Virus record (IMG/VR): IMGVR_UViG_3300035034_000705
Location: 1 to 26,202 of that record
DNA length: 26,202 bases
Reading direction: 5' to 3' (one strand)
Source: a virus
Part shown: positions 3 to 26,202 of the stretch, in pieces
Layout: each line of letters starts with the position of its first letter
Numbering within the stretch: position 1 is the stretch's first letter
Position numbers and translations under genes: made by a program
The notes under the pieces: generated by a model
What the model saw: the letters and a program-made list of their open reading frames with translations, nothing else
Database searches by the model: none
Told to the model about the DNA's origin: nothing

Positions 3-1643
3 AACCCCGAGCTATTCTGCGCCGTCAACCTTAAGATCATGGCTAAGCTACCTGGAGGGGGAAACCTCAACAGGAGCCTTATACCGTTTAAGTGGAACAG
101 GGCGCAGAAATACGCTCATGCGCGGCTTGAGGAGCAGAAGGCCAAAACGGGCAAAGTCCGGGCGTTAATTTTGAAAGGCCGTCAGCAGGGCATCTCCACA
201 TACGTCTCCGCGCGCTTCTACCACCGCGCCAGCCTGTTTAAGGGCACCTCAGTCTATATCCTGTCCCACGAGCAGAAATCGGGCCTCACGCTATTCAGCA
301 TGGCCTCGACATACCACAAGAAAAACTCACTAGCACCCCACACCTCAGTTGAAAATAAATCGGAGATGGAGTTTGACCGACTTAACAGCAAGTACGCCGT
401 CGGCACCGCTGGGGAGAGTGAAGGCGGTCGTTCGCAAAATGCTACCCATTTTCACGGCAGTGAGGTTGCGTTCTGGCGTAACGCTACAGCCCATTTTGCC
501 TCGTCCGTCCAGACAGTTGCTGACGCCCCTGGTACAGAGATTATCTTGGAGAGTACCGCCAACGGACCCTCTGGTGAGTTCTTTGAGAGATGGGAAAACG
601 CGGTCAGAGGCGACGGCGATTACATCGCGATCTTTATCCCGTGGTTCTGGCAAGACGAGTACGCCCGCGAGGTAGACGAGACCTTTGAGTTGATGGACGA
701 CGGAAGCGACGATTTTCTGTCTGAGAAACAGTATTACGAGATGTTTGAGAGCGACGGCTGTACCCTCGGCCACATGGCCTGGAGGCGTGCTAAGATTAAA
801 GAGCTAGGGTCACACGCAATCTTCGACCAGGAGTACCCTGGTACAGCGCATATGGCCTTTGTGACGACAGCCACCGACAACTTCATTAAGGCTTTACCCG
901 TTCTCCAGGCACGTAAAAGAGAGCGCGAGGGCACAGGGCCTAGGATTATGGGCGTTGACCCCTCAGGGGCCTCAGGAAGCAAGGGAGACAGGTTCGCGGT
1001 CGCTATCCGCGAGGGCCTCAAGGTGACATCGCTGACATGGCGCACGGGCATGTCCACTATGGAGGGCTACAACTACGTCTCAGACCAGATAGAGCAGCAT
1101 CAGCCGGACCGGGTTAACATAGACGCAGGGGGTATCGGCGCGTCGATCGTGTCGCTCCTCAAGGACAATTTGCCGCCTGACCAAGCCCGGCTCATCCATG
1201 CAGTCAACTTCGGCTCTCCGTCTCAGTTTATGAATATCCGCAAGCAGGCGCGCGGCTCTGGAGGCACGCACCATCCGGACCGCAAGCCCGGACCAATAAA
1301 CCGCCGCGCCGAGATGCACATGCGTATGCGAGAGTGGCTCATGCTCCAAGAGGGGGCGGATCTGCCTGATCTGGACGAGCTACAGGGCGATCTTACAGCG
1401 ACCAAACAACGCTATCGTTTAGACAACGATATACAGCTTGAGAGCAAGGAAGAGATGAGGTCACGTGGCGCTAAGTCGCCAGACCTTGCGGATGCTATTG
1501 CTTTGACCTTTGCTACGACAACCCATATACCTATGCGCAATAAAGGCGGTAAAGCCCCCACGTCGGCGCTCATTAACCCAGACACCGCGCGCAATGTCGC
1601 CCGCTCTGGCCAGACCTTCGGCAGCTATGGATGGATGACATGA
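3..1643 (+). CDS. terL: Terminase large subunit (packaging ATPase/nuclease), 5' partial
   Basis: This is the DNA-packaging motor. It hydrolyses ATP to pump DNA through the portal, and its nuclease domain cuts the concatemer. The Walker A segment GRQQGIST lies near residue 48, counting from the ATG at 39. A Walker B-like strand ending in E is at EIILESTANG. The RNase H-like nuclease domain follows, with GVDPSG, then VNIDAGGIG, then SPDLADAIAL, which supply the expected acidic residues. The frame is open from base 3 through the ATG at 39, and the residues before that ATG look like ordinary protein. No Shine-Dalgarno precedes the ATG. The true start is therefore probably upstream of the window and the protein is cut by the edge. 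The 3' end overlaps the portal start in an ATGA arrangement. The family call is firm; the start is not. Confidence 0.93.
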   Translation, partial: NPELFCAVNLKIMAKLPGGGNLNRSLIPFKWNRAQKYAHARLEEQKAKTGKVRALILKGRQQGISTYVSARFYHRASLFKGTSVYILSHEQKSGLTLFSMASTYHKKNSLAPHTSVENKSEMEFDRLNSKYAVGTAGESEGGRSQNATHFHGSEVAFWRNATAHFASSVQTVADAPGTEIILESTANGPSGEFFERWENAVRGDGDYIAIFIPWFWQDEYAREVDETFELMDDGSDDFLSEKQYYEMFESDGCTLGHMAWRRAKIKELGSHAIFDQEYPGTAHMAFVTTATDNFIKALPVLQARKREREGTGPRIMGVDPSGASGSKGDRFAVAIREGLKVTSLTWRTGMSTMEGYNYVSDQIEQHQPDRVNIDAGGIGASIVSLLKDNLPPDQARLIHAVNFGSPSQFMNIRKQARGSGGTHHPDRKPGPINRRAEMHMRMREWLMLQEGADLPDLDELQGDLTATKQRYRLDNDIQLESKEEMRSRGAKSPDLADAIALTFATTTHIPMRNKGGKAPTSALINPDTARNVARSGQTFGSYGWMT

Positions 1644-3772
1644 TCGACGGACCAAAATACGCCAAGACAGTTGTTGACGAGCTACGAGAAAAGAAAAAAG
1701 AACCGCCAGTTCCTGACGGGTTTGAGACGAAAGAAGAGTTCATCAAGTGGGCGATTGACACCTACGGCAAAGACTTGGATTCTGACAGGCTAAACCGCCA
1801 GCAGGCAATCCAGGACATGAAGTTTGTCGCCGGGGACCAGTGGGACGACCGCGTACTACAGCAACGTATAGCCGACCGTAAGCCCACACTAACGATGAAC
1901 CGCCTCCCAGCGTTTGTTGGCCAGCTTATTGGCAACCGCCGCCTTAATGAAACTGAGGTAAAAGTCGTTCCCGACACAGGCGGAACAAAGGACGTTGCCC
2001 GTATTCGCGAAAGCTTAATCCGGTCCATTCAGAAAACATCGAACGCTAACTTTGCGTACAACAAAGCGGCAGAGAATCAGATCATATCGGGCGAAGGCAA
2101 CTGGAAGATCGAAGTAGACTACGCGCACGACGACGTGTTCGAGCAAGACATCAAAATATGCGCAATTCCTAACCCGTTGTCGGTTGTATGGGATCGATCG
2201 GCACATGAGCCTACGGGCGCGGACGCGAAGCACGTCTTTGTGCTAGACGCTATTTCTCACCAAGATTTTAAGAAAGAGTACCCGTGGGCCAAAGGCAGTT
2301 CCACCGGCTCGGACATACGCTCCTACCTGACAGGTCAGGGGATTGAGAACAACTGGTTTGAGCAAGAGACGTACCGCCTGATCGAGTTTTGGAGGGTACT
2401 TTCACGCAAGCGAACGGTTGCCCTTCTAGAGTCCGACGTGGACCCATTTGCCGAGGCGCAGGTGGAGGACGTGACCGACCTGGAGCCAGAAGAGTATATC
2501 GATCGACTGGTCCTGGACAGCAGCGGTGTGCCTATCATGCGGGAAGTTGACCGTAAGTACGCCCAGATGTATCTCATGACCGCTACAGATATCCTCGAAG
2601 GCCCTTACGAGCTGCCCGTGCAGCGCGTGCCCGTAATCCGTTGCTGCGGCTGGGAGGTCAACGTTGGCGATAGTCGTCAGCGCTGGGGCTTAGTCCGCTT
2701 TCTGAAAGACCCGCAGCGCCTACACAACTACTGGCGTTCGACCATTGCCGAGAAGCTTATGATGGCTCCAAAGGGCAACTGGATTGCGGCTGATAAGTCC
2801 GTAGAAGGCCGAGAGAACGAGTGGCGCAACAGCCACATATCTAACGACCCTCTGCTCACGTATAACAGCGAGGAAGGTCCGCCGCCGCAGCGCGTACCTC
2901 CTGTCCCAATGGAGCCAGCTCTCGTCGAACAGGCGGGCATGGCCAGTCAGGATTTACATGATATTTCTAACCTTCATCAAGCAAGTCTTGGTCAGCAGAG
3001 CAATGAGGTTTCTGGCCAGGCGATTATGGCTCGTCAGAGAGTTGGAGAGACGGGTACTGCAATTTACGAGACGAACCTACAGCTTTCTATCGAAGAGACT
3101 GGCAAAGTGCTTAACCAGCTTATTCCCCTCGTTTATGACACGCCTAGAACGATTAAAATCATGGGTCCAGAGGCTGAGAAAGTCTCCACCGCCCTGATTA
3201 ACGACACGACCAACTCAGAGAGCGTTGACATCACCCTTGGGCGCTACAGCATCACGTCCTCCACTGGACCCAGCTATGTCACCAAACGCGTTGAGGCCGG
3301 GGCGTCTATGCTCAACATGGTTAATGCAGCGCCTCAGGCTATGCAGGTTGCTCTGGACAAAATCGTTGAGGCACAGGATTGGCCCGGCGCGGACGCTATT
3401 GCTGCGCGTCTGCGTACACAGCTTCCCCCAGGCGTTGTCCAGGCCAACGAGATGACCGACGAGGAGAAGCAGGCCCAAGTTGCTGCTCAAGAGGCTCAGC
3501 AGGCTCAGCAGGCCCGCGATGACGCTATGCTAGGCGCTCAGGTCAACGAGAAGAACGCACGTGCAGAGCAGGCTTTGGCCCTCGCGCAGCAAGCAATCGC
3601 CAACTCGGCCAAGATGATGTCCGAAGTTGGAGTGAAAGCGGCAGACGTTGCCGCAAGTGTAGAAGACGCCGAGACCAAACGGTTCTACGAGGCCGTTGGC
3701 ATCTACCAGGACTTCCTAGCCACACAAAAGCAAAGTGACCAAAATGACAGACCAGACCAAGCAGACGCCTAG
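1631..3772 (+). CDS. Portal protein, P22-like
   Basis: This forms the ring at the packaging vertex through which DNA enters and leaves the head and to which the neck proteins attach. The N-terminal segment matches the P22-type portal style: a GDQWDDRVLQQR stretch followed by RKPTLTMNRLPAFVGQL and GNRRLNE around residues 70-105. The core contains LHNYWRSTIAEKL and a QASLGQQSNEVSGQAI segment near residues 440-470, also typical of this family. The last ~120 residues are Ala/Gln-rich and predicted helical, compatible with the C-terminal barrel of P22-like portals. The length (713 aa) fits. Two in-frame ATGs (1631 and 1640) are possible. The one at 1640 overlaps the terminase stop as ATGA, which favours translational coupling. 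The scaffold gene begins inside its 3' end. Confidence 0.9.
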   Translation: MDDMIDGPKYAKTVVDELREKKKEPPVPDGFETKEEFIKWAIDTYGKDLDSDRLNRQQAIQDMKFVAGDQWDDRVLQQRIADRKPTLTMNRLPAFVGQLIGNRRLNETEVKVVPDTGGTKDVARIRESLIRSIQKTSNANFAYNKAAENQIISGEGNWKIEVDYAHDDVFEQDIKICAIPNPLSVVWDRSAHEPTGADAKHVFVLDAISHQDFKKEYPWAKGSSTGSDIRSYLTGQGIENNWFEQETYRLIEFWRVLSRKRTVALLESDVDPFAEAQVEDVTDLEPEEYIDRLVLDSSGVPIMREVDRKYAQMYLMTATDILEGPYELPVQRVPVIRCCGWEVNVGDSRQRWGLVRFLKDPQRLHNYWRSTIAEKLMMAPKGNWIAADKSVEGRENEWRNSHISNDPLLTYNSEEGPPPQRVPPVPMEPALVEQAGMASQDLHDISNLHQASLGQQSNEVSGQAIMARQRVGETGTAIYETNLQLSIEETGKVLNQLIPLVYDTPRTIKIMGPEAEKVSTALINDTTNSESVDITLGRYSITSSTGPSYVTKRVEAGASMLNMVNAAPQAMQVALDKIVEAQDWPGADAIAARLRTQLPPGVVQANEMTDEEKQAQVAAQEAQQAQQARDDAMLGAQVNEKNARAEQALALAQQAIANSAKMMSEVGVKAADVAASVEDAETKRFYEAVGIYQDFLATQKQSDQNDRPDQADA

Positions 3773-4895
3773 CAGCAACCCTCTCGAAGCAGAGGCAGAC
3801 CACACTAAGTTTAAAGTCGTAGAGCAGTCCGATGAGGCACAGCGGAATGCCCGATCGAGAGATGCGGACAATAGCGATAAAGCAGCCGACGACACCGCGT
3901 CAGATGAAAGCATTATTGCTGATCTGGTGGACAGTGACGACACGATCGACGACTTGGACGATATCCTCCATGACGACCTAGAGGACGGCGATCTAAAAGA
4001 TGATGATGACGACCTAGAGGACAATGATGACGACCTAGAGGACGGCGACCTAAAAGATGATGACGAGCCAGACGAGGACGGTAAAAGCCGCAAAAAGAAA
4101 GGCTCCACTCAGCAGAGGATGAACCAACTTCTCCGCGAACGCAGAGAAGCCAAGCAGGAAGCTAAGCTTGAGCGAGAGGCCCGTACAGCCCTCGAAGCAC
4201 GCCTTGCAGCGCTTGAGGAAAAGTTGACACAGCCGGAAGCCGCTGATACGTCTAAGGACGACGCCAAGGAACTTGTCGAGCCTAATCCCGACGATTTTCA
4301 ATATGGCGAACTTGATACGGAGTACACAAAAGCACTCCGCGCCTATGACCGAGACTTAGTACGGCAGGAGCTTCTAGGCCGTCTTGACAAAGACAAAGCT
4401 ACGGAAGACGAAGCCCGGCAGCAAAAAGCCGCTGAGCAAAAAGCTCAGGAAATTGCTACGCAGTATTCTACCACGCTAGATAGAGGCACCGCAAATTACG
4501 ACGACTTCCAAGAAGTTGTTGTCGATGCTGCAGACAAAGGAAAATATGCTTTGTCTGAAACCGTAGCGATGGCGGCACTGCGGTCAGAAGTAGGAGATCG
4601 TGTACTTTACACGTTAGCCAAGAACCCAAAGATGGCACAAAGCATAGCTTCAATGGTTACGCAGGACGCCGACGGGAACAAAGTTGACGACGTAAAACGC
4701 CAAACTGAGGCCTTCGCCAGACTTGAGCGCCGATTTTCGAAAGAATCCTCTAAAGGAAGCAGAAGGGCGAGTAAGGCTCCTCAGCCGCCGCGACGGAAGT
4801 CTCGTGGCACAAGTGGCAAAAATAGGGCCGACCCCGCTAATGCGAATGACTTCCTTGCACTAGAAAAAGCCTATAACTCAGGCGAACTAAATTAG
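3744..4895 (+). CDS. Head scaffolding protein
   Basis: This is inferred to guide coat assembly and then leave the procapsid. Position between portal and coat is the classic scaffold position. The first ~60 residues are polar. Next comes a run of Asp/Glu with tandem repeats (about residues 65-110), then a basic coiled coil (around residues 120-160, with MNQLLRERREAKQEAKLE). A segment of the form PNPDDFQYGELDTEYTKAL follows, and then a helical domain with ALRSEVGDRVLYTLAKNP. That late motif is common in phage scaffolds of this group. The C terminus is very basic (KGSRRASKAPQPPRRKSRG), which fits coat binding by charge. The start is the ATG at 3744; an in-frame GTG at 3735 would add three residues. 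Neither has a clear ribosome site, and both lie within the portal gene, so coupling is likely. Confidence 0.82.
   Translation: MTDQTKQTPSSNPLEAEADHTKFKVVEQSDEAQRNARSRDADNSDKAADDTASDESIIADLVDSDDTIDDLDDILHDDLEDGDLKDDDDDLEDNDDDLEDGDLKDDDEPDEDGKSRKKKGSTQQRMNQLLRERREAKQEAKLEREARTALEARLAALEEKLTQPEAADTSKDDAKELVEPNPDDFQYGELDTEYTKALRAYDRDLVRQELLGRLDKDKATEDEARQQKAAEQKAQEIATQYSTTLDRGTANYDDFQEVVVDAADKGKYALSETVAMAALRSEVGDRVLYTLAKNPKMAQSIASMVTQDADGNKVDDVKRQTEAFARLERRFSKESSKGSRRASKAPQPPRRKSRGTSGKNRADPANANDFLALEKAYNSGELN
3972..4063 (+). repeat. Tandem acidic repeat inside the scaffold gene
   Basis: A 35-bp unit at 3972-4006 recurs at 4029-4063 with a single T/C difference. Its first 14 bases (GACGACCTAGAGGA) occur a third time at 4008-4021. 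The unit encodes DDLEDGDLKDD, so the repeats lengthen an Asp-rich acidic arm in phase with the reading frame. The near identity suggests recent slippage or duplication. Confidence 0.9.
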
Positions 4896-4907
4896 AGGAT
4901 TACCCAA

Positions 4908-6167
4908 ATGGCTAACCAGTTTCTCAATGCAACCGAGTACGCGAACGCGTTCCTCGTCTTGCTGAAAAACCAACTGGTCGCGGCAAAGCTCGTGACTGGT
5001 GAATTTCGTGATGAAGTGACTGACGAAAATGGTCTCTCCGTCAACATTAAACGTCCACCCCGCTTTATTGCTAACGACGGCGCAGCTCTCGCAGCTCAAG
5101 ACATCGTAACTGGCTCTACCAACGTCCGCGTTGACCAGTACAAGAACGTCCACGTTTCCGTTGGCGATCTTGAGTACGTCCAGTCTTTCAACGAGCTGAT
5201 CAAGAACGAAACCTTGAAGTCTGCCGCGTCCGAATTGGCGCATACGATCGACGGCGCTATCCTGAACGAGATGAAGTTCTTTCACTCTTCGGTCGGTACT
5301 CCGGGCAATGTGATCGGAACACCGCAGCAGTTCAACGCCGCGCATACGCGTTTGATGAACCAAGCGGTCCCTAACGAGAGCATCAACGCTATTGTGTCCT
5401 TCGATGACGGCGCAGCAATTCGCGGCTCCCTAATCGGCGGGGATATCCCGGGCATCAACCGGACCGCACTTGAGCGCGTCCGCATCCCTCTCATCTCCGA
5501 GATTGACTTGTACGCATCCAACAACCTTCGTTCGGTTGTCTCTGGTACGCGGACAGGGGGCACAGGCCCAGCGGTCAATGGCGCAAGTCAGAACGTCAAC
5601 TATCGCGCCGTGAAAGACACAAACGTTCAGACACTGAATGTGGACGGCCTAGGTGCGAACGCGACTGTTGCGCAAGGTGACATCTTCACCATTGCTGGCG
5701 TCTTTGCGATTAACCCGCGCAGCCGCGAAGTTCTGCCTTACCTACAGCAGTTTGTTGTCATGGCAGACGCTACGGCATCGGGTGCAGGCGCAGCAGCCCT
5801 CACAGTGTCTATGCCTATCATCGTACCTGGCACCAATGACGGCACGAGTACAGTTGCCAATACGGCCTTTGCGACGGTCTCCGCCGCCCCTGCCGACAAC
5901 GCAGCTATCCAGTTCTACGCCGGAGCAAACGCAAGAGTTCCCGTCCGCGCAGCCTTCCATCGCCGGGCAATCTCTCTCGTATCTGCAAGACTGGCAATGC
6001 CATTTACAGGCGAGGCGTCCTTTGTGACCGACCCTGATACTGGCGTGTCTGTTCGCTACTGGCGCGGCTCTGATATCCAGACAGGTGCCCACATCCACCG
6101 CTTCGATACGATCTACGGCGTAGATAATATCCAGCCAATGCTAGGCGTCCGTGTAAACGGCTCCTAA
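4908..6167 (+). CDS. Major capsid protein, P22 gene 5-like coat
   Basis: This is the shell-forming coat protein with the HK97 fold as found in P22. The N terminus (MANQFLNATEYANAFLVLL, then LSVNIKRPPRF near residue 43 and VSVGDLEYVQSFNEL near 83) matches the P22 coat family pattern, as do ASELAHTIDGAIL and the length of 419 aa. A Gly/Ala/Thr-rich stretch, including GDIFTIAGVFAINPRSREVL around residues 255-280, corresponds to the part of P22-like coats that carries the conserved INP turn. A good ribosome site (GAGGA at 4895-4899, 8 bases before the ATG) overlaps the scaffold stop codon, fitting the high expression needed. A strong hairpin follows the stop. Family assignment is confident; the exact extent of any telokin-like insertion domain cannot be judged by eye. 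Confidence 0.93.
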   Translation: MANQFLNATEYANAFLVLLKNQLVAAKLVTGEFRDEVTDENGLSVNIKRPPRFIANDGAALAAQDIVTGSTNVRVDQYKNVHVSVGDLEYVQSFNELIKNETLKSAASELAHTIDGAILNEMKFFHSSVGTPGNVIGTPQQFNAAHTRLMNQAVPNESINAIVSFDDGAAIRGSLIGGDIPGINRTALERVRIPLISEIDLYASNNLRSVVSGTRTGGTGPAVNGASQNVNYRAVKDTNVQTLNVDGLGANATVAQGDIFTIAGVFAINPRSREVLPYLQQFVVMADATASGAGAAALTVSMPIIVPGTNDGTSTVANTAFATVSAAPADNAAIQFYAGANARVPVRAAFHRRAISLVSARLAMPFTGEASFVTDPDTGVSVRYWRGSDIQTGAHIHRFDTIYGVDNIQPMLGVRVNGS

Positions 6168-17980: not shown

Positions 17981-18733
17981 ATGGGCCTACGGACGTATAT
18001 CGCGGCAGGCGCTACAGCCCTGTTCCTCGCTCTAGGCGTCACAACCTTCCTCCTCGGCAGAGCCTACCTTGCAGAGAGGGACACAACCGCGAAGCTGGAG
18101 CAGGCCGCAGAAATAAACAAGCTCACCCAGCAGCTCAAGGACCAACAGCAGCAGGCCCTAACGATCGTTAGGGAGACCTACGACGGTCAGATCAGCGCGG
18201 CAGACCGCAGACACACTCAGGAGATAAACGATGTCACACGCCAGCTTGTGGACGCGCGCCGGGCAGCAGTGCAGGAGCCTATCCACTTCGGTGATGATCT
18301 TATGCGCGGCTTCCTTCGCGTTGACTGCGTGTGGAGCCTGGGGGCAGAAGCTCTTAGTCCAGAAGGCCGAGCCTCCTGTGATCGTCAAGCGGCCACTTCC
18401 GACCCCGCCAGGGCGGGCTTTTCCGTACTTACCCCCAGCTTCCTACGAGCCTGGTCTGACGCCTGTGAGCAGTACCCCAGAGCCGCTGCAGGGTCCGCAG
18501 CCGGAGAGACCGGAGACCTCGCCTACACCTTAGAGGAATGGGCTATAGAGTTCGGCAACTTCGACCCATCCCTCTGTTCTGAGAGCCTAGTGGTGATGAC
18601 GCCGGAGGCGGCGCTGTACTTCCGGTTGTTCCTGGAGAACGGCAGCCGATACACCCTGGACTTGCTCCGCTATGTGAGCGAACAGAACGAGGTGCTAGAC
18701 CTTCTGCAAAGAAAAGGCCCCACACCGAACTAA
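17981..18733 (+). CDS. Inner-membrane spanin, Rz-like, with long C-terminal extension
   Basis: This 250-residue protein has an N-terminal membrane anchor at about residues 6-27 (YIAAGATALFLALGVTTFLL), then a coiled coil at about residues 30-100 (LEQAAEINKLTQQLKDQQQQ). That is the i-spanin plan: anchored in the inner membrane, helical in the periplasm. An embedded o-spanin gene in the +1 frame (18231-18533) makes the pair. Canonical Rz proteins are shorter (around 150 aa), while this one continues with a further ~150 residues. The first part overlaps the o-spanin, and the last ~70 residues lie beyond it (NFDPSLCSESLVVMTPEAAL, then FLENGSRYTLDLL). The extension is not recognised. It may be an extra periplasmic domain. 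Confidence 0.75.
   Translation: MGLRTYIAAGATALFLALGVTTFLLGRAYLAERDTTAKLEQAAEINKLTQQLKDQQQQALTIVRETYDGQISAADRRHTQEINDVTRQLVDARRAAVQEPIHFGDDLMRGFLRVDCVWSLGAEALSPEGRASCDRQAATSDPARAGFSVLTPSFLRAWSDACEQYPRAAAGSAAGETGDLAYTLEEWAIEFGNFDPSLCSESLVVMTPEAALYFRLFLENGSRYTLDLLRYVSEQNEVLDLLQRKGPTPN
18219..18233 (+). promoter_or_regulatory. Ribosome site and start of the nested o-spanin
   Basis: AGGAG at 18219-18223 sits 7 bases before ATG 18231. It lies inside the i-spanin coding frame and decides the o-spanin start; a later ATG at 18294 would leave too short a signal segment. Confidence 0.8.
18231..18533 (+). CDS. Outer-membrane lipoprotein spanin, Rz1-like, nested in i-spanin gene
   Basis: This is a 100-residue frame entirely inside the i-spanin gene, in the +1 frame. 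An N-terminal signal (RSLSTSVMILCAASFALTA) ends in the lipobox LTAC with Cys at residue 34, so signal peptidase II processing and lipid anchoring to the outer membrane are expected. The mature part is short (~67 aa) and Pro-rich (EPPVIVKRPLPTPPGRAFPY, then many Pro residues to the end), as in Rz1. A clean AGGAG ribosome site lies 7 bases before the ATG. The nested arrangement, lipobox and Pro-rich tail together make this a confident Rz1-type call by architecture; sequence homology was not tested. Confidence 0.85.
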   Translation: MSHASLWTRAGQQCRSLSTSVMILCAASFALTACGAWGQKLLVQKAEPPVIVKRPLPTPPGRAFPYLPPASYEPGLTPVSSTPEPLQGPQPERPETSPTP

Positions 18734-18737
18734 CGAT

Positions 18738-18758
18738 GCAGGGCCAGGTGCTGCCTGC
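18738..18758. terminator. Weak hairpin between convergent gene arms
   Basis: GCAGG (18738-18742) pairs with CCTGC (18754-18758), and CAG (18745-18747) with CTG (18751-18753) around a GTG loop, with GC bulged. It lies in the short gap between the end of the late arm and the end of the helicase gene. It has no U-tract on either strand, so a bidirectional terminator role is only tentative. Confidence 0.35.
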
Positions 18759-18769
18759 GTGACAGAGAC

Positions 18770-20821
18770 TTATTTACTCATGATACCATAAGCTTGAGCC
18801 AGAGCAAGAACGTCTTGCGGGGTTAGCTTCGTGTCGGTCATGCGGGCTTTGATAAGAGCTGCAACGTCAACGGGGTCACTAGATGACGCTGGCGCAGTCT
18901 TCGCAGGTGCGCGCTTACGAGGGGCAGCCTTCTTAGGAGCTGGCTCTTCGTCCTCCTCATCTTCGTCCTCATCTTCGTCCTCACCCTCACCCTCACCAAG
19001 AGCCTCTTGTACGGCCTTAGAGAACTGACGCTTGGCCCGGCGAGTGACGGGTTCCTCATCTTCCTCATCTTCGTCCTCATCTTCGTCCTCAGGCTCTTCC
19101 TGCTTTAGCTTAGCCTTCGTCGCTGAGCGGCTGGAGCGGCGGCGAGGAGCTGGCTCTTCGTCCTCATCTTCGTCCTCATCTTCCTCGACAGGAGCAGCAG
19201 CACGGGTACGTGTGCGGCTTTTACGGCGAGGGGCCGGAGCTTCATCTTCGTCCTCTTCTTCGATTTCGTCGATGTAGTCCTCGACCGAGGATTCTTGTAC
19301 TTTTGACTTCGTTGATAAACGTCTACGTGCCATGATGTTTTCCTTAGTATCATGTCCATCTATCGGAGATGGGGCCGTTTTACCGTCGCGGTAAATCTCT
19401 GCGTTCAAGGCGAGGAGAAGTGCGTTCTGCGTCCCGCCTTTCGCGTAAACTGAATCCTCTAAAACGCGCTCATCGATAGTGTTCTCCACAACGAAAATGT
19501 GGTTGAACACACGGGCCTGGGTGTTGCCCTGGCGAAATATGCGTTTTATAAACTGGTCGTAGTTCTCATAGTCCCAGGTCATGGAGAACTGCGCTATGTG
19601 GCAGGCCTGGCCCTTCTGTAAGTTCAGTCCGTGAGCGACCGATGCAGGGTGTGCAAACAGGATTGGGTATTTGTTGGCGTTCCAGTCCGCCTCAATCTGC
19701 ATGGACTGCTTCTCACCAACGCCCTTCCCGATATGGGGTGTGCTCTCACCGAACGCCGCCTTGAGCCTGTCCAGATCATGGTTAAACTCGTAGGCCACCA
19801 GCAGAGGCGTTCCCTGCAGCTCCTCCACCAGCTCCTTAAGCGCATCGATCTTAGCGTCATGCAGGTGTTGGACAGTCCGCTCCTCTAGCACACCGTCTCC
19901 GGCGTAGACAGCGCCATTGGCCATCTGCTTGAGCTTGGAGTACACCCCAGCGGCATTGGCTGCTTCGACGACCCCACCAGGCAGGTCCGCGACCATATCC
20001 TTCTTCATCTTCATATAGACCTTACGGGCCTTAGGGGGCATGGTGATGACACGTATGTCCTCCACCAGCTCAGGCAGGTCCAGGTAGTCTTTTGCGCTCA
20101 TCCGGAGAACATAGGGCTTGATCCGTTCCTCAATCTGCTTTCCCGCGCCGCGCCGGAGGGTGTAGTCGAATCCATTGTAGTCACTTTCGAAATATTTGGA
20201 GCGGTAGTGCGTGATGTATCTGCCGAGGGACGCGCCCTGGTCCATGATCAGCATCTGCCCAAACAGGTCCAGATAGCCATTAGGGATGGGTGTACCCGTC
20301 AGGCCCCATCGATACTTGACCTTGGCCATTTTGGGCAGCAACTGCTTGTGCCGCACCGACGACGCATTCTTGAATCGTGTCAGCTCATCGATACACACGA
20401 TGTCGTAGGGGAGCTGGTGGCCCCAATACTTGTGCATGAGCCAGGGTATGCCCTCTGGATTGATCAGGTGGATGTCTGTGTCCTCGTCTAGCAGAGCGTC
20501 CTTCTTAGAGCCGTGGAGGAGGGTGAAGGTTAAATCCTTGAACTGTGTCCAGCGCGCGCCCTCTTGCCTCCACACGAGCTGGCAGACGCGTAGGGGGGCT
20601 ATGATCAGCATCTGCTTGACCTGGCCCTGCCGTTTGAGCTGTTGGAAGGCGTCAAGGGTTATAGACGTCTTCCCAAGTCCTGGGTCTAAAAGTAGGATTC
20701 CTACCCTTCTGTCTTCCTCTTGCATGAACATGGACGCCCGCTCCTGATAGCTGTGCGCGTTCCAAGGCTCGTGAGATAGCGCTCTTTGCACTCTCGTCGT
20801 TGTCGCAGATGCAAACATCAT
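18770..20821 (-). CDS. SNF2-like DNA helicase with long acidic/basic C-terminal tail
   Basis: This is an ATP-dependent superfamily 2 motor, probably for replication or recombination. A Q-motif-like NAHSYQERASMF is near residue 21. Walker A DPGLGKT is at 46-52, DELT (Walker B-like) at 145-148, LTGTP at 174-178. The second domain has HGLNLQ (397-402) and QFIKRIFRQGN (423-433), the SNF2-like motifs V and VI. The recognisable motor ends near residue 490. The last ~187 residues are not motor. They are alternating Asp/Glu-rich runs and Arg/Lys/Pro/Ser-rich runs, repeated four times, then a helical end (DPVDVAALIKARM, LTPQDVLALAQAYGIMSK). An in-frame ATG with a strong ribosome site begins exactly at this boundary. 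The N-terminal start overlaps the upstream nuclease gene by 170 bases. Confidence 0.85.
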   Translation of the reverse strand: MMFASATTTRVQRALSHEPWNAHSYQERASMFMQEEDRRVGILLLDPGLGKTSITLDAFQQLKRQGQVKQMLIIAPLRVCQLVWRQEGARWTQFKDLTFTLLHGSKKDALLDEDTDIHLINPEGIPWLMHKYWGHQLPYDIVCIDELTRFKNASSVRHKQLLPKMAKVKYRWGLTGTPIPNGYLDLFGQMLIMDQGASLGRYITHYRSKYFESDYNGFDYTLRRGAGKQIEERIKPYVLRMSAKDYLDLPELVEDIRVITMPPKARKVYMKMKKDMVADLPGGVVEAANAAGVYSKLKQMANGAVYAGDGVLEERTVQHLHDAKIDALKELVEELQGTPLLVAYEFNHDLDRLKAAFGESTPHIGKGVGEKQSMQIEADWNANKYPILFAHPASVAHGLNLQKGQACHIAQFSMTWDYENYDQFIKRIFRQGNTQARVFNHIFVVENTIDERVLEDSVYAKGGTQNALLLALNAEIYRDGKTAPSPIDGHDTKENIMARRRLSTKSKVQESSVEDYIDEIEEEDEDEAPAPRRKSRTRTRAAAPVEEDEDEDEDEEPAPRRRSSRSATKAKLKQEEPEDEDEDEDEEDEEPVTRRAKRQFSKAVQEALGEGEGEDEDEDEDEEDEEPAPKKAAPRKRAPAKTAPASSSDPVDVAALIKARMTDTKLTPQDVLALAQAYGIMSK
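18935..19270 (-). repeat. Repeated acidic/basic coding blocks in helicase tail
   Basis: Four GAA/GAT/GAC/GAG-rich blocks (about 18944-18996, 19052-19100, 19153-19187 and 19240-19270) encode Glu/Asp runs separated by Arg/Lys/Pro/Ser stretches. An exact 21-bp match occurs at 18935-18955 and 19145-19165. Spurious poly-Ser frames appear on the opposite strand as a by-product. Confidence 0.8.
19331..19345 (-). promoter_or_regulatory. Internal ribosome site and in-frame ATG in the helicase gene
   Basis: On the minus strand AAGGA (complement of 19341-19345) lies 7 bases before an ATG (complement of 19331-19333). The ATG is in frame with the helicase and would make a separate 187-residue acidic/basic protein (MARRRLSTKS...). 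It falls exactly where the helicase motor ends. Confidence 0.55.
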
Positions 20822-21062
20822 AATCCAATTTCAGTAGTAGGTTAATCTTACGTTCTTGCTTGGCGTTGGGAGGCTCACCATCCCACTTGAACTCTATGTA
20901 GAGGGGCCTGCCTCCTGGGATAAGGAAGAGCACGTCTGGCCACCCAGTCTCTGCCCCAGGCCCAAAGTAAAACCGGACACTGTAAACACCTATGGGCTTA
21001 GCCCATTTGATGATGCGGGCCTGCAGCTTAAGCTCTTCCTTCGCCTGGGTGGGCTTAACCAT
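20652..21062 (-). CDS. VRR-NUC domain nuclease
   Basis: Numbered from the ATG at 21062 (136 aa), the PD-(D/E)XK-type VRR-NUC pattern is visible. GW-P42-D43 lies in the GAETGWPDVLFLI strand, E57-x-K59 in PLYIEFKWDGE, and a Q69 helix follows (AKQERKINLLLKL). A final strand/helix (YDVCICDNDESAKSAISRAL) follows the family plan. Such nucleases act as Holliday-junction or flap/structure-specific enzymes, or as small stand-alone phage nucleases. An upstream in-frame start would add 35 unlike residues. The ATG chosen overlaps the preceding gene's stop by 8 bases (ATGGTTAA), which suits coupling. The C-terminal ~55 residues (KGRNPTFRPRTWEDVYNP end) overlap the helicase start for 170 bases in another frame. 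Confidence 0.82.
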   Translation of the reverse strand: MVKPTQAKEELKLQARIIKWAKPIGVYSVRFYFGPGAETGWPDVLFLIPGGRPLYIEFKWDGEPPNAKQERKINLLLKLDYDVCICDNDESAKSAISRALERAQLSGAGVHVHARGRQKGRNPTFRPRTWEDVYNP

Positions 21063-21741
21063 AGGAGCAAGGCCCACCGTTCGATCGGCGGAAGTGGCAC
21101 CAGCCGCACAGCGCATTTGGGTTGGCGGGGAAGCGGTCGGCGGCGAGCATGGCCTCTGCGCGCGCAACGATGTCGTCGAAGTAGTCGAGAGCTTCCTGCT
21201 TGGTGTACTCTTCGACCACCTCGTCGCCCGTGTCTAGAAACCATAGGCGGGTACTGATTGTCTCCAGCTTCCCCCCCGTTCGGAGAACAGATACCCCGGC
21301 GTACAGTCTGAGCTGATCAGTATATTTGTCCATGCTCTGAGGCCGGAACTTGCCAGTTTTAAAATCTATAATGTCCGCGTGACTGTCGCCATAGTCGAGG
21401 AACGCGTCAAGGGACAGGCGCAGCCATGCGTCCGGCGCGAACTTGCCTGTCATCTTCATCTTCTGGGTGAATGTCCAATCCTCCTCCACGATAGGGTGCA
21501 TCTCTTTCAGCTCCTCCAGTTGGGAGGTGAAGGCCGCGCCGGAGGCTGGGACCATCTTAACCTTACCGTCCAGGTAGTCCGCGACCTCTTTGTGTACCTT
21601 AATCCCACGCCACATGGCGTCGCCCTTAGGCTCCTCCAGCTTGTCGATGTTGCGGTATTTGAACAGGGCCGGGCACTGCTCATAGCAGGTCAGACGGGAG
21701 TAGGACCAGAAGGTGTTCCAGGGTCTAGCTTTTGGCATCAT
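21055..21741 (-). CDS. Cas4/RecB-like PD-(D/E)XK exonuclease
   Basis: This is a 228-residue PD-(D/E)XK nuclease of the Cas4/RecB type. H50 lies in a GIKVHKEVADYL helix, D112 in LSLDAFLD, D126-x-K128 in IIDFKTGK, and Q143...Y147 in YTDQLRLYA. Together these are the RecB-family nuclease motifs. Cysteines C19/C23 near the N terminus (SRLTCYEQCP) and C212, C215 and C225 near the C terminus (CGWCHFRRSNGGPC) are placed as in iron-sulfur Cas4-like enzymes. It could act as an end-processing exonuclease in replication or recombination. No CRISPR genes or arrays are near, so an adaptation role is unlikely. It overlaps the genes on either side by 8-17 bases. Confidence 0.85.
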   Translation of the reverse strand: MMPKARPWNTFWSYSRLTCYEQCPALFKYRNIDKLEEPKGDAMWRGIKVHKEVADYLDGKVKMVPASGAAFTSQLEELKEMHPIVEEDWTFTQKMKMTGKFAPDAWLRLSLDAFLDYGDSHADIIDFKTGKFRPQSMDKYTDQLRLYAGVSVLRTGGKLETISTRLWFLDTGDEVVEEYTKQEALDYFDDIVARAEAMLAADRFPANPNALCGWCHFRRSNGGPCSYG

Positions 21742-21976
21742 CTTTCCCGTCTATAAAGAACTTCGTGACCTCTGCCGGGTCCATCTTGAACAGCTCGGCA
21801 AAAACAATGCCCGCCATCTTCTCATACCCGTCGCGAATGTCTGGGTCGAGCTGGCTGTACAAGGGGCTGGTTAACGTGCTCACGCTCTTGTATATCGCAA
21901 GACCGCAGTGCCTCCGCATACGGATGAGCTGGGCGAGATCATCCCGCTCATGTAGGTTGGTTCCGTTCTTCGTCAT
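21725..21976 (-). CDS. Small unknown protein in replication operon
   Basis: This is an 83-residue protein, mostly helical, without recognisable motifs: MTKNGTNLHERDDLAQLIRM, then LAIYKSVSTLTSPLYSQL, then IVFAELFKMDPAEVTKFFID. It overlaps the polymerase stop by ATGA and overlaps the Cas4-like start by 17 bases, so it is co-translated with both. A role as a replication or nuclease accessory is possible from context only. Confidence 0.72.
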   Translation of the reverse strand: MTKNGTNLHERDDLAQLIRMRRHCGLAIYKSVSTLTSPLYSQLDPDIRDGYEKMAGIVFAELFKMDPAEVTKFFIDGKDDAKS

Positions 21977-23919
21977 GCTGCTTCCCTCTTGTCGTCGTAG
22001 CTCTCTAAGTTACCCCAACGGTCCCCGACCTTGCCGGACGAACGCATAAGAAGATCCAGGACAACGCCTTCCATCGCTTCTAACAGGTAGAGCATCTCCT
22101 GCTCTACAAGGTCTTCGTGGCAGCTTATGTTTATCTCATCATAGACCGTGACCAGAAACCGCGTCGTCGCGTGCCTACGTGGGTCTTCGTACCAACGGAT
22201 TAAAGCTTCGTATGTGATGTCCGCTGCAGAGCCTTGACAGTAGTAGTTGATCAGCTTGTAGAGGTAGTGCCTGATACGCCCATCAACCAGTCGCGGCTCC
22301 TCGCAGAAATAGCAGCGCCCGCCCCAGGTCCGGATTGGGTCGCCTTCATCGATAATCTCTTTGATCACATCGTTGACATGAATACGGCCTGGAAGGGCTG
22401 TGTCGTGGAACTTCTTAAACCTCTTGGCGTCGGCCATAGTACAGCCCTCATCCAGGGCCGCGTTGAGCGCCTTCTGAGCCGCAGGGACGCCGCCGCCGTA
22501 CAGGCCTTGGAAGTTCAAAATCTTAACAGGCGTCCGGTCCAGTGCAACACCGACCAGCTTCTCCACCTCATCCCGAACCCAGCCGTGGGGGTCGAGGTCT
22601 GGGTCTGCCTGGTACGCCTCTAGGAGTGGCCCCTGCTCCACATGAGCGAAGGCACGCATCTCCTGCCCGTCGAAGTCGCGGTGACAGAACACATGGCCGG
22701 GGTCGGGCAGGACGTATGCGCGCACATTGGGAAGGGGTGGCAGGCCCCACTCGTTGCCATCCTCAAAGTCGAACTTCTCCCGATCGGACGCTTTGAAGTC
22801 TTTAGGTATGTTCAAAAAGTTTGGGTTAGAGGTGGACGGCCTGCCTGTCCGAGCGCCGCCGTCTGGGCTGCGGACCTGGTTCCAGACCGTGGATATGATC
22901 CCGCCGCGCTGCTTGGCCTGGGCCTCCCACGGGCGGAGGAATGTGGACAAGGTTGTCTGCACCTTGTTGCGGTAGAAGAATAGGCGGGCGACGTGCCTGT
23001 CCTTGAACATCTCAAACTTAAGATTGTCCTTGGAAACACTCCGTAACCCTGTCTTGGTTAGGGTCCAGTCGTCGTCGTCGATGCAACCGCTATCACTAAG
23101 AGCATCAGCAAGTTGAGCGTCAGAAGCAATGTTAAGATCAGGGGCATCCAGAGCGCTTCTGAGGAGGTCATCGGCCTGTTCAAGAGCCGCCTCGTATCGC
23201 GGTACATCGCGCTCCAGCGCTTCGATATCCACATGTATGCCATCCCGTTCGTTCTCCATAAATATAGGCATGACGCGCCGCGTCCGGTCATAGGAAGGTA
23301 CCATACGGTACTCATCCACTACGGGCAGCATCGTCTGAAACAGCCCCCAGGTTCGCCCCACATCGCCAATAGCGTACTTTCCGACCAGACCTGCTGGGCA
23401 CTTCGATATCCACGCCCCAGCGCTGTTAGGGCCAGACTTAGCCTTAGTTATGTTGCCCCCATGCTTGGCGACCAGCCGCTTGCGGTGCTTCCAAACATAG
23501 TCGGCTATCACGTCGCGCTCTTCTGGTGGCCAGTCCAGCCACTCCTCCGCAAGCTCCTTAAGCGCCAGGGACTTGCTGTGCGGCTCCAGGAGAAACGCCA
23601 GGAACATCGTGTCGTGTACGCGGTCCCACGGCAGAGGGTCTAGCCCCATGCGCTCATAGGCGACGTGTAGGTCGAACTTGGCGTTGTGGAACAGGACAGG
23701 GGCGTTGCTGCTCCAGATACTCTCCAGCACGCGCTTGGCCTCGCGCTTGGTGCAGTTGTTGCCTTTGGGGTGGCCCCACGCCAGATAGTCCTCGTCACCG
23801 TTCACCCAGCGGATAGCGACGCCGACTGGTTCAGGCGGGAACTCCGGCCAGTATTGCGCAATCGCCTCTGTCTCGAAATCGACTGTAACGGCGCTGTCTA
23901 TGAGCGTATCAATGGACAC
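21973..23919 (-). CDS. DNA polymerase I-like (family A) with proofreading exonuclease
   Basis: This is the phage replicative polymerase. Exonuclease motifs: D14-x-E16 (VTVDFETEA), N79...F82-D83 (LFHNAKFD), and Y182...D186 (YAIGD). Polymerase motifs: TGRPSTSNPNFLNIP at about 358-372; motif A D415-F-D-G-Q-E420-M-R422 (DFDGQEMR); motif B R462...K466...F470...YG475 (KILNFQGLYGG); motif C VYDE at 592-595. The catalytic Asp residues D415 and D594 are present. Motif C carries Tyr593 where most Pol I members have His. Phe at the E. coli Pol I F762 equivalent (F470) is of the kind reported to correlate with virulent phages. There is no 5'-3' exonuclease domain. The start is GTG 23919, with AGAGGA just upstream. 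Confidence 0.93.
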   Translation of the reverse strand: MSIDTLIDSAVTVDFETEAIAQYWPEFPPEPVGVAIRWVNGDEDYLAWGHPKGNNCTKREAKRVLESIWSSNAPVLFHNAKFDLHVAYERMGLDPLPWDRVHDTMFLAFLLEPHSKSLALKELAEEWLDWPPEERDVIADYVWKHRKRLVAKHGGNITKAKSGPNSAGAWISKCPAGLVGKYAIGDVGRTWGLFQTMLPVVDEYRMVPSYDRTRRVMPIFMENERDGIHVDIEALERDVPRYEAALEQADDLLRSALDAPDLNIASDAQLADALSDSGCIDDDDWTLTKTGLRSVSKDNLKFEMFKDRHVARLFFYRNKVQTTLSTFLRPWEAQAKQRGGIISTVWNQVRSPDGGARTGRPSTSNPNFLNIPKDFKASDREKFDFEDGNEWGLPPLPNVRAYVLPDPGHVFCHRDFDGQEMRAFAHVEQGPLLEAYQADPDLDPHGWVRDEVEKLVGVALDRTPVKILNFQGLYGGGVPAAQKALNAALDEGCTMADAKRFKKFHDTALPGRIHVNDVIKEIIDEGDPIRTWGGRCYFCEEPRLVDGRIRHYLYKLINYYCQGSAADITYEALIRWYEDPRRHATTRFLVTVYDEINISCHEDLVEQEMLYLLEAMEGVVLDLLMRSSGKVGDRWGNLESYDDKREAA

Positions 23920-24232
23920 TGTTGGTCCTCTGAATGTCTACGACCTGCACCCAATCTACTGCCAGTATGTCGTCCTGCGCCATAGGGTATGGGACGATCA
24001 CTAAGCCTCCTTGGGTCTGCCCGCAAAGGTGTATGGTAGGGGGGATAGTGGCGGTCCGCTCTACGTCACCTACTAACACTATAGCACCGTCAGTGTGAGC
24101 CTCCTCCAGGAACACGAACAAAGATGTGGGAGGCCAGGAGGTGCGGCGGAACAGTAGCCCCTCCTTAAGGCCGTGGACGACCGTTGCCGTATCTACCAGC
24201 ATATCTTTGCTGGGGGCGGTGTACTGTGTCAC
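23909..24232 (-). CDS. DUF2829 / Tad2-like protein, candidate anti-Thoeris factor
   Basis: This 107-residue protein shows the DUF2829 plan: an N-terminal VVHGLKEGLLFRRTSW (18-33), i.e. a KEG...R..W signature, beta strands in the middle (FVFLEEAH, IPPTIHLCG, GLVIVPYPM), and a closing DDILAVDWVQV (87-97), i.e. D-LA-DW. DUF2829 proteins are known as the Tad2 family, which can sequester cyclic ADP-ribose signal molecules and so block Thoeris defence; not all members have been tested. The start is GTG 24232, near GAGG. It overlaps the polymerase start by 11 bases and follows the Cys-motif protein gene by 4 bases, so it is expressed with replication genes. Family by pattern is good; activity is inference. 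Confidence 0.7.
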   Translation of the reverse strand: MTQYTAPSKDMLVDTATVVHGLKEGLLFRRTSWPPTSLFVFLEEAHTDGAIVLVGDVERTATIPPTIHLCGQTQGGLVIVPYPMAQDDILAVDWVQVVDIQRTNSVH

Positions 24233-24236
24233 GGCT

Positions 24237-25088
24237 TCACCGCCTCGCTTTTTTACGGGCCGCGATACTGTTCTTGCCCTTCACCTTAGGTGCAGCCAGC
24301 TCGTCCTCAGAGGGAGCCTCATAGCCTTTGAGCAGCATCTCGCGTGCCTCATCTACACGGCTAAGGATAACGCCTAGGCACTCGTCTGAGAGGTCGCCCT
24401 CGCCGATCTTCTCTACCAGCTCAAAGTCGATAGTGAACTGGTTCTCCGCGTCTGGCTCAACAATGATGTTGGACACGACGGCGAAGGGCGGGAGCTGGTC
24501 CTGCTTGGTCAGAGAGGAGGCGTATTTACTGAACGCCTTCATGTTGGTTGGGGAGAGACTGAGCTGGAAAATGGGGGCGTCGCGGTAGTGGTCAGCGTCC
24601 ACATACAGCTCTTCAGAGTAGTCTCGCTTACCCTGCTTAATAAACTCGCCGGCAAACATCACAGCTAGGCGTCGGCGGTTGCCGCATTTCTTCCCGCGGC
24701 CCTTGTCTGCGGACCCCCACTTCGAAAACTCACACTTAGAGCACTCGGCATCGTCGCCGTCGGACTGAGCGATGAAGTAGTCTCCGTCGTCTGCCTCCTC
24801 AGGGAACTTACAGGCTTCGTCGGCTGCCAGGTCTTTCTCGGAGAACGCCAGGGCGAAGCACTTAGGAGGGAGCTGCACGTCTGGGTCATACGCGTGGTCG
24901 TAGTAGGCGTTTTCGTACACGTAATCTACGATGATAGCGAGCATCTGGTTGCCCGGCAGTTCGTCCTCACCGATCTTCATTATGCCACCACGGACAGACA
25001 CGCGTTGAGAGGTGATCTTCTCCTCTGCGGCGTACTCTTTCGCTTTGACGGCCAGTTGCTTTTTATACTTCTCAATTGCGGTGCCCAT
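24237..25088 (-). CDS. Cys-motif replication-operon protein, possible ssDNA-binding/accessory
   Basis: This 283-residue protein has SVRGGIMKIGEDELPGNQML near residues 31-50, which leads into a strand AIIVDYVYENAYYDHAYDPD. A C-x2-C at 116-119 with C135 (CSKCEFSKWGSADKGRGKKC) suggests a metal- or nucleic-acid-binding knuckle. Other Cys lie at 77 and 93, and the C terminus is Lys/Arg-rich (KGKNSIAARKKARR). Similar proteins are found beside phage DNA polymerases, often annotated hypothetical. ssDNA binding is a reasonable guess by context and basic tail, but not shown. AGGAG lies 8 bases before the ATG. The next gene starts 4 bases after its stop. Confidence 0.7.
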   Translation of the reverse strand: MGTAIEKYKKQLAVKAKEYAAEEKITSQRVSVRGGIMKIGEDELPGNQMLAIIVDYVYENAYYDHAYDPDVQLPPKCFALAFSEKDLAADEACKFPEEADDGDYFIAQSDGDDAECSKCEFSKWGSADKGRGKKCGNRRRLAVMFAGEFIKQGKRDYSEELYVDADHYRDAPIFQLSLSPTNMKAFSKYASSLTKQDQLPPFAVVSNIIVEPDAENQFTIDFELVEKIGEGDLSDECLGVILSRVDEAREMLLKGYEAPSEDELAAPKVKGKNSIAARKKARR

Positions 25089-25098
25089 GTTGGGTCTC

Positions 25099-25500
25099 CT
25101 ATAGCTTGGTTAGGCTGATTGATTTCAGCAAGATTGTGTTGATACCTGGAATGCTGCCGTCCACGAGAGTGTCCATGATAGCCTTGTCTGACAGGCGCTT
25201 CTGCAGCAAGTCAAAGCGGTCCTCATCCACAACATAGTCGTAGAACTGCTCCCAATCCTCAACGATAGGTTTCTCGTTGATCTTAAGCTGCGCCCGATAG
25301 GTCTTGCCCGCCGCGCCAGTGTCGTACTCCTCAGAGCCTAGGCTGGATATGAGATGCTCTTGCAGCTCCGACGCGCGCTTACGCACAACGTCAACCTCCT
25401 TCTGCATAGCGGTGGCAAGGTCTTTGACCTTTTTCAGCTCGTCGGCGCAGCGACCTAGGCTGGAGGGGATAGGGTCTCCCGCAACATAGCTAATCTTCAT
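25099..25500 (-). CDS. Conserved-looking phage protein with coiled coil, unknown
   Basis: This is 133 residues long. A coiled-coil segment spans about residues 14-55 (RCADELKKVKDLATAMQKEV, then RKRASELQEHLI). It is followed by a compact half with KPIVEDWEQFYDYVVDEDRF and DLLQKRLSDKAI, and an end GSIPGINTILLKSISLTKL. The WEQFYDYV...DLLQKR...PG.....LS.TK pattern recurs in phage hypothetical proteins near replication genes. The start overlaps the end of the upstream gene by 11 bases and has GGAG about 8 bases upstream, within a repeated junction element. Function unknown. Confidence 0.72.
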   Translation of the reverse strand: MKISYVAGDPIPSSLGRCADELKKVKDLATAMQKEVDVVRKRASELQEHLISSLGSEEYDTGAAGKTYRAQLKINEKPIVEDWEQFYDYVVDEDRFDLLQKRLSDKAIMDTLVDGSIPGINTILLKSISLTKL

Positions 25501-25750
25501 CGTTCAGGCTCCAGTGGACTTTCAAGGTGTACAGATCCAGAAGACTTTCAAGGTTTTCTTGACAATCCGTGAGGTTGTCCAAGACGGAGGATAGGCGGTC
25601 ACATGCTTCATCTAGTGCGAGGGCTGGTCTGCCTTCGGGAACGTTGTCCGTCTCGTCTGATACGTCGTCTCTGTACTCCTCCAGTGAGCTACACAGTTTC
25701 TCAACTTGAGAGATGTACTTTTTAATCTGGGGAATGCGTCTCTTATTCAT
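25490..25750 (-). CDS. Small acidic coiled-coil protein, unknown
   Basis: This 86-residue protein is predicted helical: IPQIKKYISQVEKLCSSLEE, then LALDEACDRLSSVLDNLTDC and QENLESLLDLY. It ends in SLNDED, the same C-terminal signature as the upstream J-domain protein (SLNDE), because both stop/start junctions carry the same 17-bp repeat. AAGGAG lies 8 bases before its ATG. Likely a structural or adaptor helix pair; no family was recognised. Confidence 0.68.
   Translation of the reverse strand: MNKRRIPQIKKYISQVEKLCSSLEEYRDDVSDETDNVPEGRPALALDEACDRLSSVLDNLTDCQENLESLLDLYTLKVHWSLNDED
25496..25512 (-). repeat. 17-bp junction repeat, copy 1
   Basis: TTCATCGTTCAGGCTCC (plus strand) is identical to 25746-25762. 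On the minus strand it holds the GGAG ribosome site, the spacer and the ATG of the 133-residue gene, and codes SLNDE at the end of the upstream gene. Confidence 0.85.
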
Positions 25751-25976
25751 CGTTCAGGCTCCTTATAAGTGTCTCTTTTGCAGCAGTCAAAACGGCCATG
25801 TCTGGCACGTCATCACTTGTGGAGGTGTCGGGGTGGCAGGCACGGGCCTTCGCTTTGAATGCAGCAGCAATCTCTACGGCCCCCGGGAATGCAGTCTCAG
25901 CAAAGCCCAAAGATTTAAGCGCCCTAGCGCGATTCCTCTTCTTCGCTAGCTGCCCGTCCGGTCTACGCAATACCAC
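25743..25976 (-). CDS. Mini J-domain (DnaJ-like) protein
   Basis: This is a 77-residue protein. A helix I-like ALKSLGFAE stretch is followed by helix II (VEIAAAFKAKARA, 34-46), then the His-Pro-Asp motif at 48-50 (CHPDTS). Helix III (PDMAVLTAAKETLIR, 58-72) follows. This is the J-domain order with HPD, the motif that stimulates Hsp70 (DnaK) ATPase; glycine/zinc modules of full DnaJ are absent. A basic N terminus (KKRNRAR) precedes it. The start is GTG 25976 with AGGAG 7 bases upstream. It may recruit host DnaK to phage replication or assembly, which is inference. It overlaps the next gene by 8 bases. Confidence 0.75.
   Translation of the reverse strand: MVLRRPDGQLAKKRNRARALKSLGFAETAFPGAVEIAAAFKAKARACHPDTSTSDDVPDMAVLTAAKETLIRSLNDE
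25746..25762 (-). repeat. 17-bp junction repeat, copy 2
   Basis: This is identical to 25496-25512. On the minus strand it includes the SD and ATG of the 86-residue gene and codes SLNDE, the end of the J-domain protein. Confidence 0.85.
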
Positions 25977-26005
25977 GTCTTGTCTCCTATTGTAGTGTGC
26001 CCTGC

Positions 26006-26194
26006 CTATGACGAACTGTCAAGACTTCGTTTGCGTGCAGCGCGTTTTTTAGCAGGTGTCATGCTTAATGCGGACTGACCTTTGGCGTATTCGCGGTAGG
26101 TCGGGAAGCTGGCCATATACAGCTCGAAGTCCTCCTGCGTAAGCTGACGCTGCTCCCACTCTTCCCGATCGGATATGACCAAAAACTGAGACAT
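26006..26194 (-). CDS. Small basic protein, unknown
   Basis: This is a 62-residue protein (MSQFLVISDREEWEQRQLTQ, then EDFELYMASFPTYREYA) with a Lys/Arg/Ser-rich end (PAKKRAARKRSLDSSS). It has no recognised family. A GGGGGC run immediately before the ATG could act as a ribosome site. It is the first complete gene of the minus-strand operon in the window, so upstream promoters are probably outside. A gap of 29 bases separates it from the J-domain gene. Confidence 0.62.
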   Translation of the reverse strand: MSQFLVISDREEWEQRQLTQEDFELYMASFPTYREYAKGQSALSMTPAKKRAARKRSLDSSS

Positions 26195-26202
26195 CTGCCC
26201 CC

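Follow-up and report, generated by a model that had tools for sequence, protein, structure and literature searches.

The window analysed here is the whole of an IMG/VR virus record, 26,202 bases long, which carries a P22-like portal and coat protein as well as a minus-strand replication cluster made up of genes for a SNF2-like helicase, a VRR-NUC-like nuclease, a PD-(D/E)XK exonuclease, a DNA polymerase, a Tad2-like protein, a Cys-motif protein and small proteins. The Tad2-like gene (positions 23909–24232, minus strand) begins with GTG and encodes 107 aa; we assign it to PF11195/DUF2829 on the basis of a Pfam match and a modelled fold that matches solved Tad2 structures. Downstream of it lies the polymerase gene (21973–23919, minus strand), whose product belongs to family A (PF00476, E = 2e-30), includes a 3'-5' exonuclease domain (PF01612, E = 2.6e-7) and is about 40% identical to the polymerases of Pseudoxanthomonas phage PW916, Stenotrophomonas phage AXL_3 and phage MW202621. 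Upstream is the gene for the 283-aa Cys-motif protein (24237–25088, minus strand), which, as seen from alignment and from our survey of related loci, is kept beside the polymerase in related phages, and which is 33–37% identical to the syntenic proteins of the same three phages. This protein gave no Pfam match, and its PHROG matches are all of unknown function. The original prediction had called it a Cys-motif replication protein: it does contain the cysteines and is conserved, while the word "replication" comes from synteny.

Several other features of the record deserve mention. The P22-like portal and coat genes (1631–6167) and the replication module (18770–25088) sit on one record, and among phage records the polymerase and the Cys-motif protein of that module are nearest to those of PW916 and AXL_3; at the DNA level, phage records held no relatives of positions 18000–26202 of the window. 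The virus is a mosaic of P22-like structural genes and a replication module nearest to PW916 and AXL_3. The C-terminal region of the SNF2-like helicase (18770–20821) is long, acidic and of low complexity, with many DE repeats. Beyond the Cys-motif gene, a 17-nt exact direct repeat, TTCATCGTTCAGGCTCC, occurs at 25496–25512 and 25746–25762, and could be a recombination scar; its two copies flank most of an 86-aa ORF (25490–25750), the product of which ends, like that of a 77-aa neighbour, in SLNDE or SLNDED.

The ORF at 23909–24232 is a real gene and not a chance frame. We base this on its matches to PF11195 and phrog_1048, on the observation that shuffling the region yields a stop-free frame in only 2% of cases, on a codon usage like that of its neighbours (CAI 0.66, against 0.56–0.74 for the neighbouring genes) and on a Shine-Dalgarno-like run, GAGGCGG, upstream of the GTG start. 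The original prediction named no strand; the plus-strand frame over the same positions is interrupted by stops, whereas the minus-strand frame is open throughout. The junctions are tight, as had been proposed from the sequence along with the placement of the gene amid a Cys-motif gene and a DNA polymerase gene: 4 nt separate the stop of the Cys-motif gene from the GTG of the Tad2-like gene, the 3' end of which overlaps the GTG start of the polymerase gene by 11 nt. That the protein is an outlier of its family, and that the viral collection gave no close relative, might be expected if the frame were accidental or the gene in decay, but the intact frame, a Pfam match at gathering level, the packed junctions and the neighbour-like codon usage make such an origin very improbable.

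The assignment to the Tad2/DUF2829 family, put forward in the original prediction from motif layout, holds up in profile searches. The expected residues are present in the translated minus-strand ORF (K23-E24-G25, R30, W33 and D88-I-L-A-V-D-W94), and the protein encoded there (hereafter the window protein) matches PF11195 over profile positions 5–71 of 73 with 33.5 bits (E = 6e-8), above the curated gathering cut-off of 25 bits; its PHROG match is phrog_1048 (E = 8.5e-7). The family resemblance is nevertheless distant. Against PDB sequences, the best phmmer match was HgmTad2, and a weak one (E = 0.0014). A profile built from 22 relatives with the window protein left out detected it at 31 bits, whereas each of those relatives scored 80–149 bits when left out in turn. 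Alignment A5, which combines the window protein with these 22 relatives, was gathered by conserved-motif patterns and is thus biased towards canonical loops. From sequence, then, the window protein is a true but remote, outlying member of the Tad2 family.

Searches for nearer kin returned little. Querying viral contigs with the protein gave no close relative, and the window protein found only weak matches among 369 genomes of the class of genome G049, besides the genome already known. We also scanned viral contigs for a W-P followed by QxDxLAxDW at Tad2 spacing, which returned 104 stretches, only three of them in a single open frame; those three are Tad2-like proteins in which the W-P sits upstream of a canonical GWNG loop. 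The scan, which used fixed codons and spacing that more divergent relatives would escape and included no canonical-loop control, found no other Tad2 with a WP-type loop. PF11195 is rare in the species sampled (3/369, 2/289 and 2/291 genomes, each count including a centre genome picked for carrying the domain). PADLOC and NCBIfam gave no match for the Tad2-like protein.

Structure comparison agrees with this placement. A monomer model of the window protein built with A5 (pLDDT 74.7, pTM 0.64) had solved Tad2 entries as its sole significant Foldseek matches (best E = 5.8e-5, probability 1.00). By VIA-align, Tad2 entries scored Z 7.0–8.4 and the next, unrelated entry 4.4, so that all solved Tad2 proteins (SPO1 Tad2, ModTad2, HgmTad2/AcrIIA7 and SptTad2) rank first, and in a viral structure library the named best matches were Tad2-like or DUF2829 proteins. 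The monomer fold thus bears out the proposed likeness to solved Tad2, with the qualification that A5 itself contains Tad2 relatives, so that the fold match does not count as evidence separate from the sequence match. An alignment-free model was poor (pLDDT 40.9), and a structure search with it returned no Tad2.

The window protein departs from its relatives most clearly in two places. In the first, the beta1-beta2 loop and the first residue of beta2 (residues 31–38, positions 24119–24142 on the minus strand, placed by A5 and the model strands) read TSWPPTSL where relatives have xGWNGKGM, so that the GWN[G/A]..M pattern has become SWPPTSL. The second spans beta4, the beta4-alpha3 loop and alpha3 (residues 79–95, IVPYPMAQDDILAVDWV, positions 23948–23998 on the minus strand, placed by A5 and the model); here the PW..SQ that leads up to the conserved Q in relatives is PYPMAQ. 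In all, six residues differ (G32 to S, N34 to P, G35 to P, M38 to L, W82 to Y and S85 to A), the originals of which are kept in 21–22 of the 22 relatives. The loop reads WNG in twenty relatives, WNA in one and WAG in another, and it is WNG in the aligned solved Tad2 sequences as well; the window protein, with WPPTS, does not carry this alignment-derived motif, a putative marker of functional Tad2. On the other hand, G25, R30, W33, P81, Q86, D88, L90, D93 and W94 are all kept, and the C-terminal QxDxLAxDW is intact (Q86-D-D-I-L-A-V-D-W94), though the W and S before it are Y and A. In Tad2, the beta1-beta2, beta3-beta4 and beta4-alpha3 loops, together with strand beta4 and helix alpha3, form the lining of the gcADPR pockets (PMC12043709); when these segments are mapped by the succession of elements in the model, the changes appear to fall on them.

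Divergence of this loop is seen elsewhere in the family. The low-scoring PF11195 members from the profile search (L233, L234 and L240) vary in the loop, and these have no known anti-defence or anti-Thoeris role. As a separate observation, a Lachnospiraceae MAG (L221, L238 and L241) encodes a single protein in which PF11195 occurs twice; the loop is divergent in the first domain (PAWRGYW) and canonical in the second (GWNGKGM).

A pattern in which scaffold residues stay while pocket-loop residues go could also arise if the Tad2 scaffold now did another job, perhaps as a protein-protein inhibitor or a small replication accessory protein, with its signal pocket disused. The closest solved sequence, HgmTad2/AcrIIA7, was deposited as a type II CRISPR-Cas inhibitor, which adds to the appeal of this idea, as does the company that the gene keeps in related phages (see below). 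Yet on the pocket side the protein retains Q86, D88 and the LAxDW tail, there is no conserved partner or motif indicating another function, and PADLOC and NCBIfam are silent, so that we consider a different job possible but doubtful.

We surveyed 80 viral loci with related polymerases. Where both flanking genes were found, the interval separating the Cys-motif gene from the polymerase ranged from nothing to more than 1 kb, and a conserved basic protein about 70 residues long was often encoded in it. In single cases it held a peptide deformylase (L034), a thymidylate synthase (L053), an HNH endonuclease (L047) or a Rv2179c-like exonuclease/3'-5' exoribonuclease (L013), cargo unrelated to Thoeris, in keeping with another job for the scaffold. 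This interval (L006–L066) is a variable cargo slot, Tad2-like genes included. At L011, a near-canonical Tad2-like gene (317–661) directly follows the Cys-motif gene and lies upstream of a polymerase 44% identical to that of the window; it shares the slot with the window gene but differs in sequence (29–32% identity), having near-canonical GWAGAGVF and ADMLANDW. L039 has a canonical or near-canonical Tad2-like gene downstream of its polymerase, within the gene cluster, L041 a partial Tad2-like match upstream of the polymerase, and in L107, which came from the Tad2 search, the Tad2-like gene is immediately followed by a distant homologue of the Cys-motif gene.

On the polymerase tree (54 rows) the L011 and window carriers lie apart, and the four rows with Tad2-like genes require four changes, all of which are forced by the starred branches. 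A single inherited origin of Tad2-like genes in this polymerase lineage is therefore disfavoured, and their presence in four scattered lineages suggests repeated acquisition, with losses still possible. At other loci the neighbours of Tad2-like genes are mixed (head-tail adaptor, head assembly, endolysin, helicase and polymerase), and in SpaA1 a Tad2-like gene lies between head genes (PMC3398947). We therefore reject a special enrichment of the family in replication operons; the position in the window is not special to it. The location is compatible with early expression.

Our preferred explanation, in which we place about even confidence, is that the window gene encodes a divergent Tad2-family sponge for a nucleotide signal, probably of the ADP-ribose type, carried as replication-operon cargo. 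The gene in the cargo slot would probably be translated together with the Cys-motif gene and the DNA polymerase; its product would assemble as a homo-oligomer (functional Tad2 is a homotetramer with its pockets between protomers), which would hold an immune signal, and with the signal captured the host effector would stay inactive. That signal is more probably of the ADP-ribose type (gcADPR or His-ADPR class); a cyclic dinucleotide is the less probable choice. The Pfam, profile and fold matches, the W-to-Q spacing described below and the canonical or near-canonical Tad2-like genes at L011 (in the slot) and L039 (in the gene cluster), together with the kept core and C-terminal residues, support a sponge, which the six changed pocket-loop residues, the loop-divergent PF11195 members and the dependence of the model on its alignment weaken. 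An anti-Thoeris function can only be inferred for the window protein, and less readily so because PF11195 is broader than functional Tad2 and because the WNG-type loop and the W and S beside Q are lost. A 2026 report on a Sinorhizobium phage left the function of its Tad2-like gene undetermined (PMC13299392). Tad2 homologues are widely called anti-Thoeris by Pfam name alone, and the window protein, Pfam-positive yet without the loop motif of solved Tad2, offers a test case for how far such annotation can be trusted, and also for asking whether changes in the loop shift which signal the protein captures. The replication-operon slot is of wider interest as a place where related phages hold differing accessory genes, some of them Tad2-like.

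Comparison with solved Tad2 proteins bears on the class of signal. Counted from alignments, the spacing between the W of the pocket loop and the site of the conserved Q (V in ModTad2) is 53 in the window protein, 52 in both SPO1 Tad2 and ModTad2, 64 in SptTad2 and 70 in HgmTad2. Cyclic dinucleotide binding by Tad2 is enabled by a beta2-beta5 insertion (PMC12043709), and SPO1 Tad2 does not bind 3'3'-cGAMP (PMC11722364). Since the spacing in the window protein is near that of the SPO1 and Myroides proteins and the long form is tied to cyclic dinucleotides, an ADP-ribose-type signal seems the likelier of the two if the protein is a sponge, judging from length alone. A sponge that took up cyclic dinucleotides or some other nucleotide signal, acting against CBASS or a similar system and not Thoeris, would fit the binding of cyclic dinucleotides by HgmTad2 and SptTad2 (PDB titles; PMC12043709) and the altered specificity that the loop changes suggest, but the long beta2-beta5 insertion of those proteins is missing here, and we regard such a target as unlikely. 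Less likely still is a sponge with a rebuilt pocket for a signal outside the known Tad2 range, for example an uncharacterised ADP-ribose derivative made by another Thoeris type.

Among the solved proteins, SPO1 Tad2 (Bacillus phage, Gp34.65; PDB 8sme, 8smf and 8wje) is like the model in fold (Z 8.0–8.4, rmsd 2.2–3.7), is similar in length and shares the C-terminal QxDxLAxDW; at about 22% identity, it has WNGKN and AWVPSQ where the window protein has WPPTS and PYPMAQ. ModTad2 (Myroides odoratus prophage; PDB 9eib, with His-ADPR) is also alike in fold (Z 7.7) but has the WNGKGM and W.PS that are absent from the window protein. HgmTad2/AcrIIA7 (PDB 8kbi, 8kbj and 8kbk), although the best sequence match in the PDB and similar in fold (Z 7.4–7.8), differs in its long insertion and in its canonical WNGKGM and WLASQTD.
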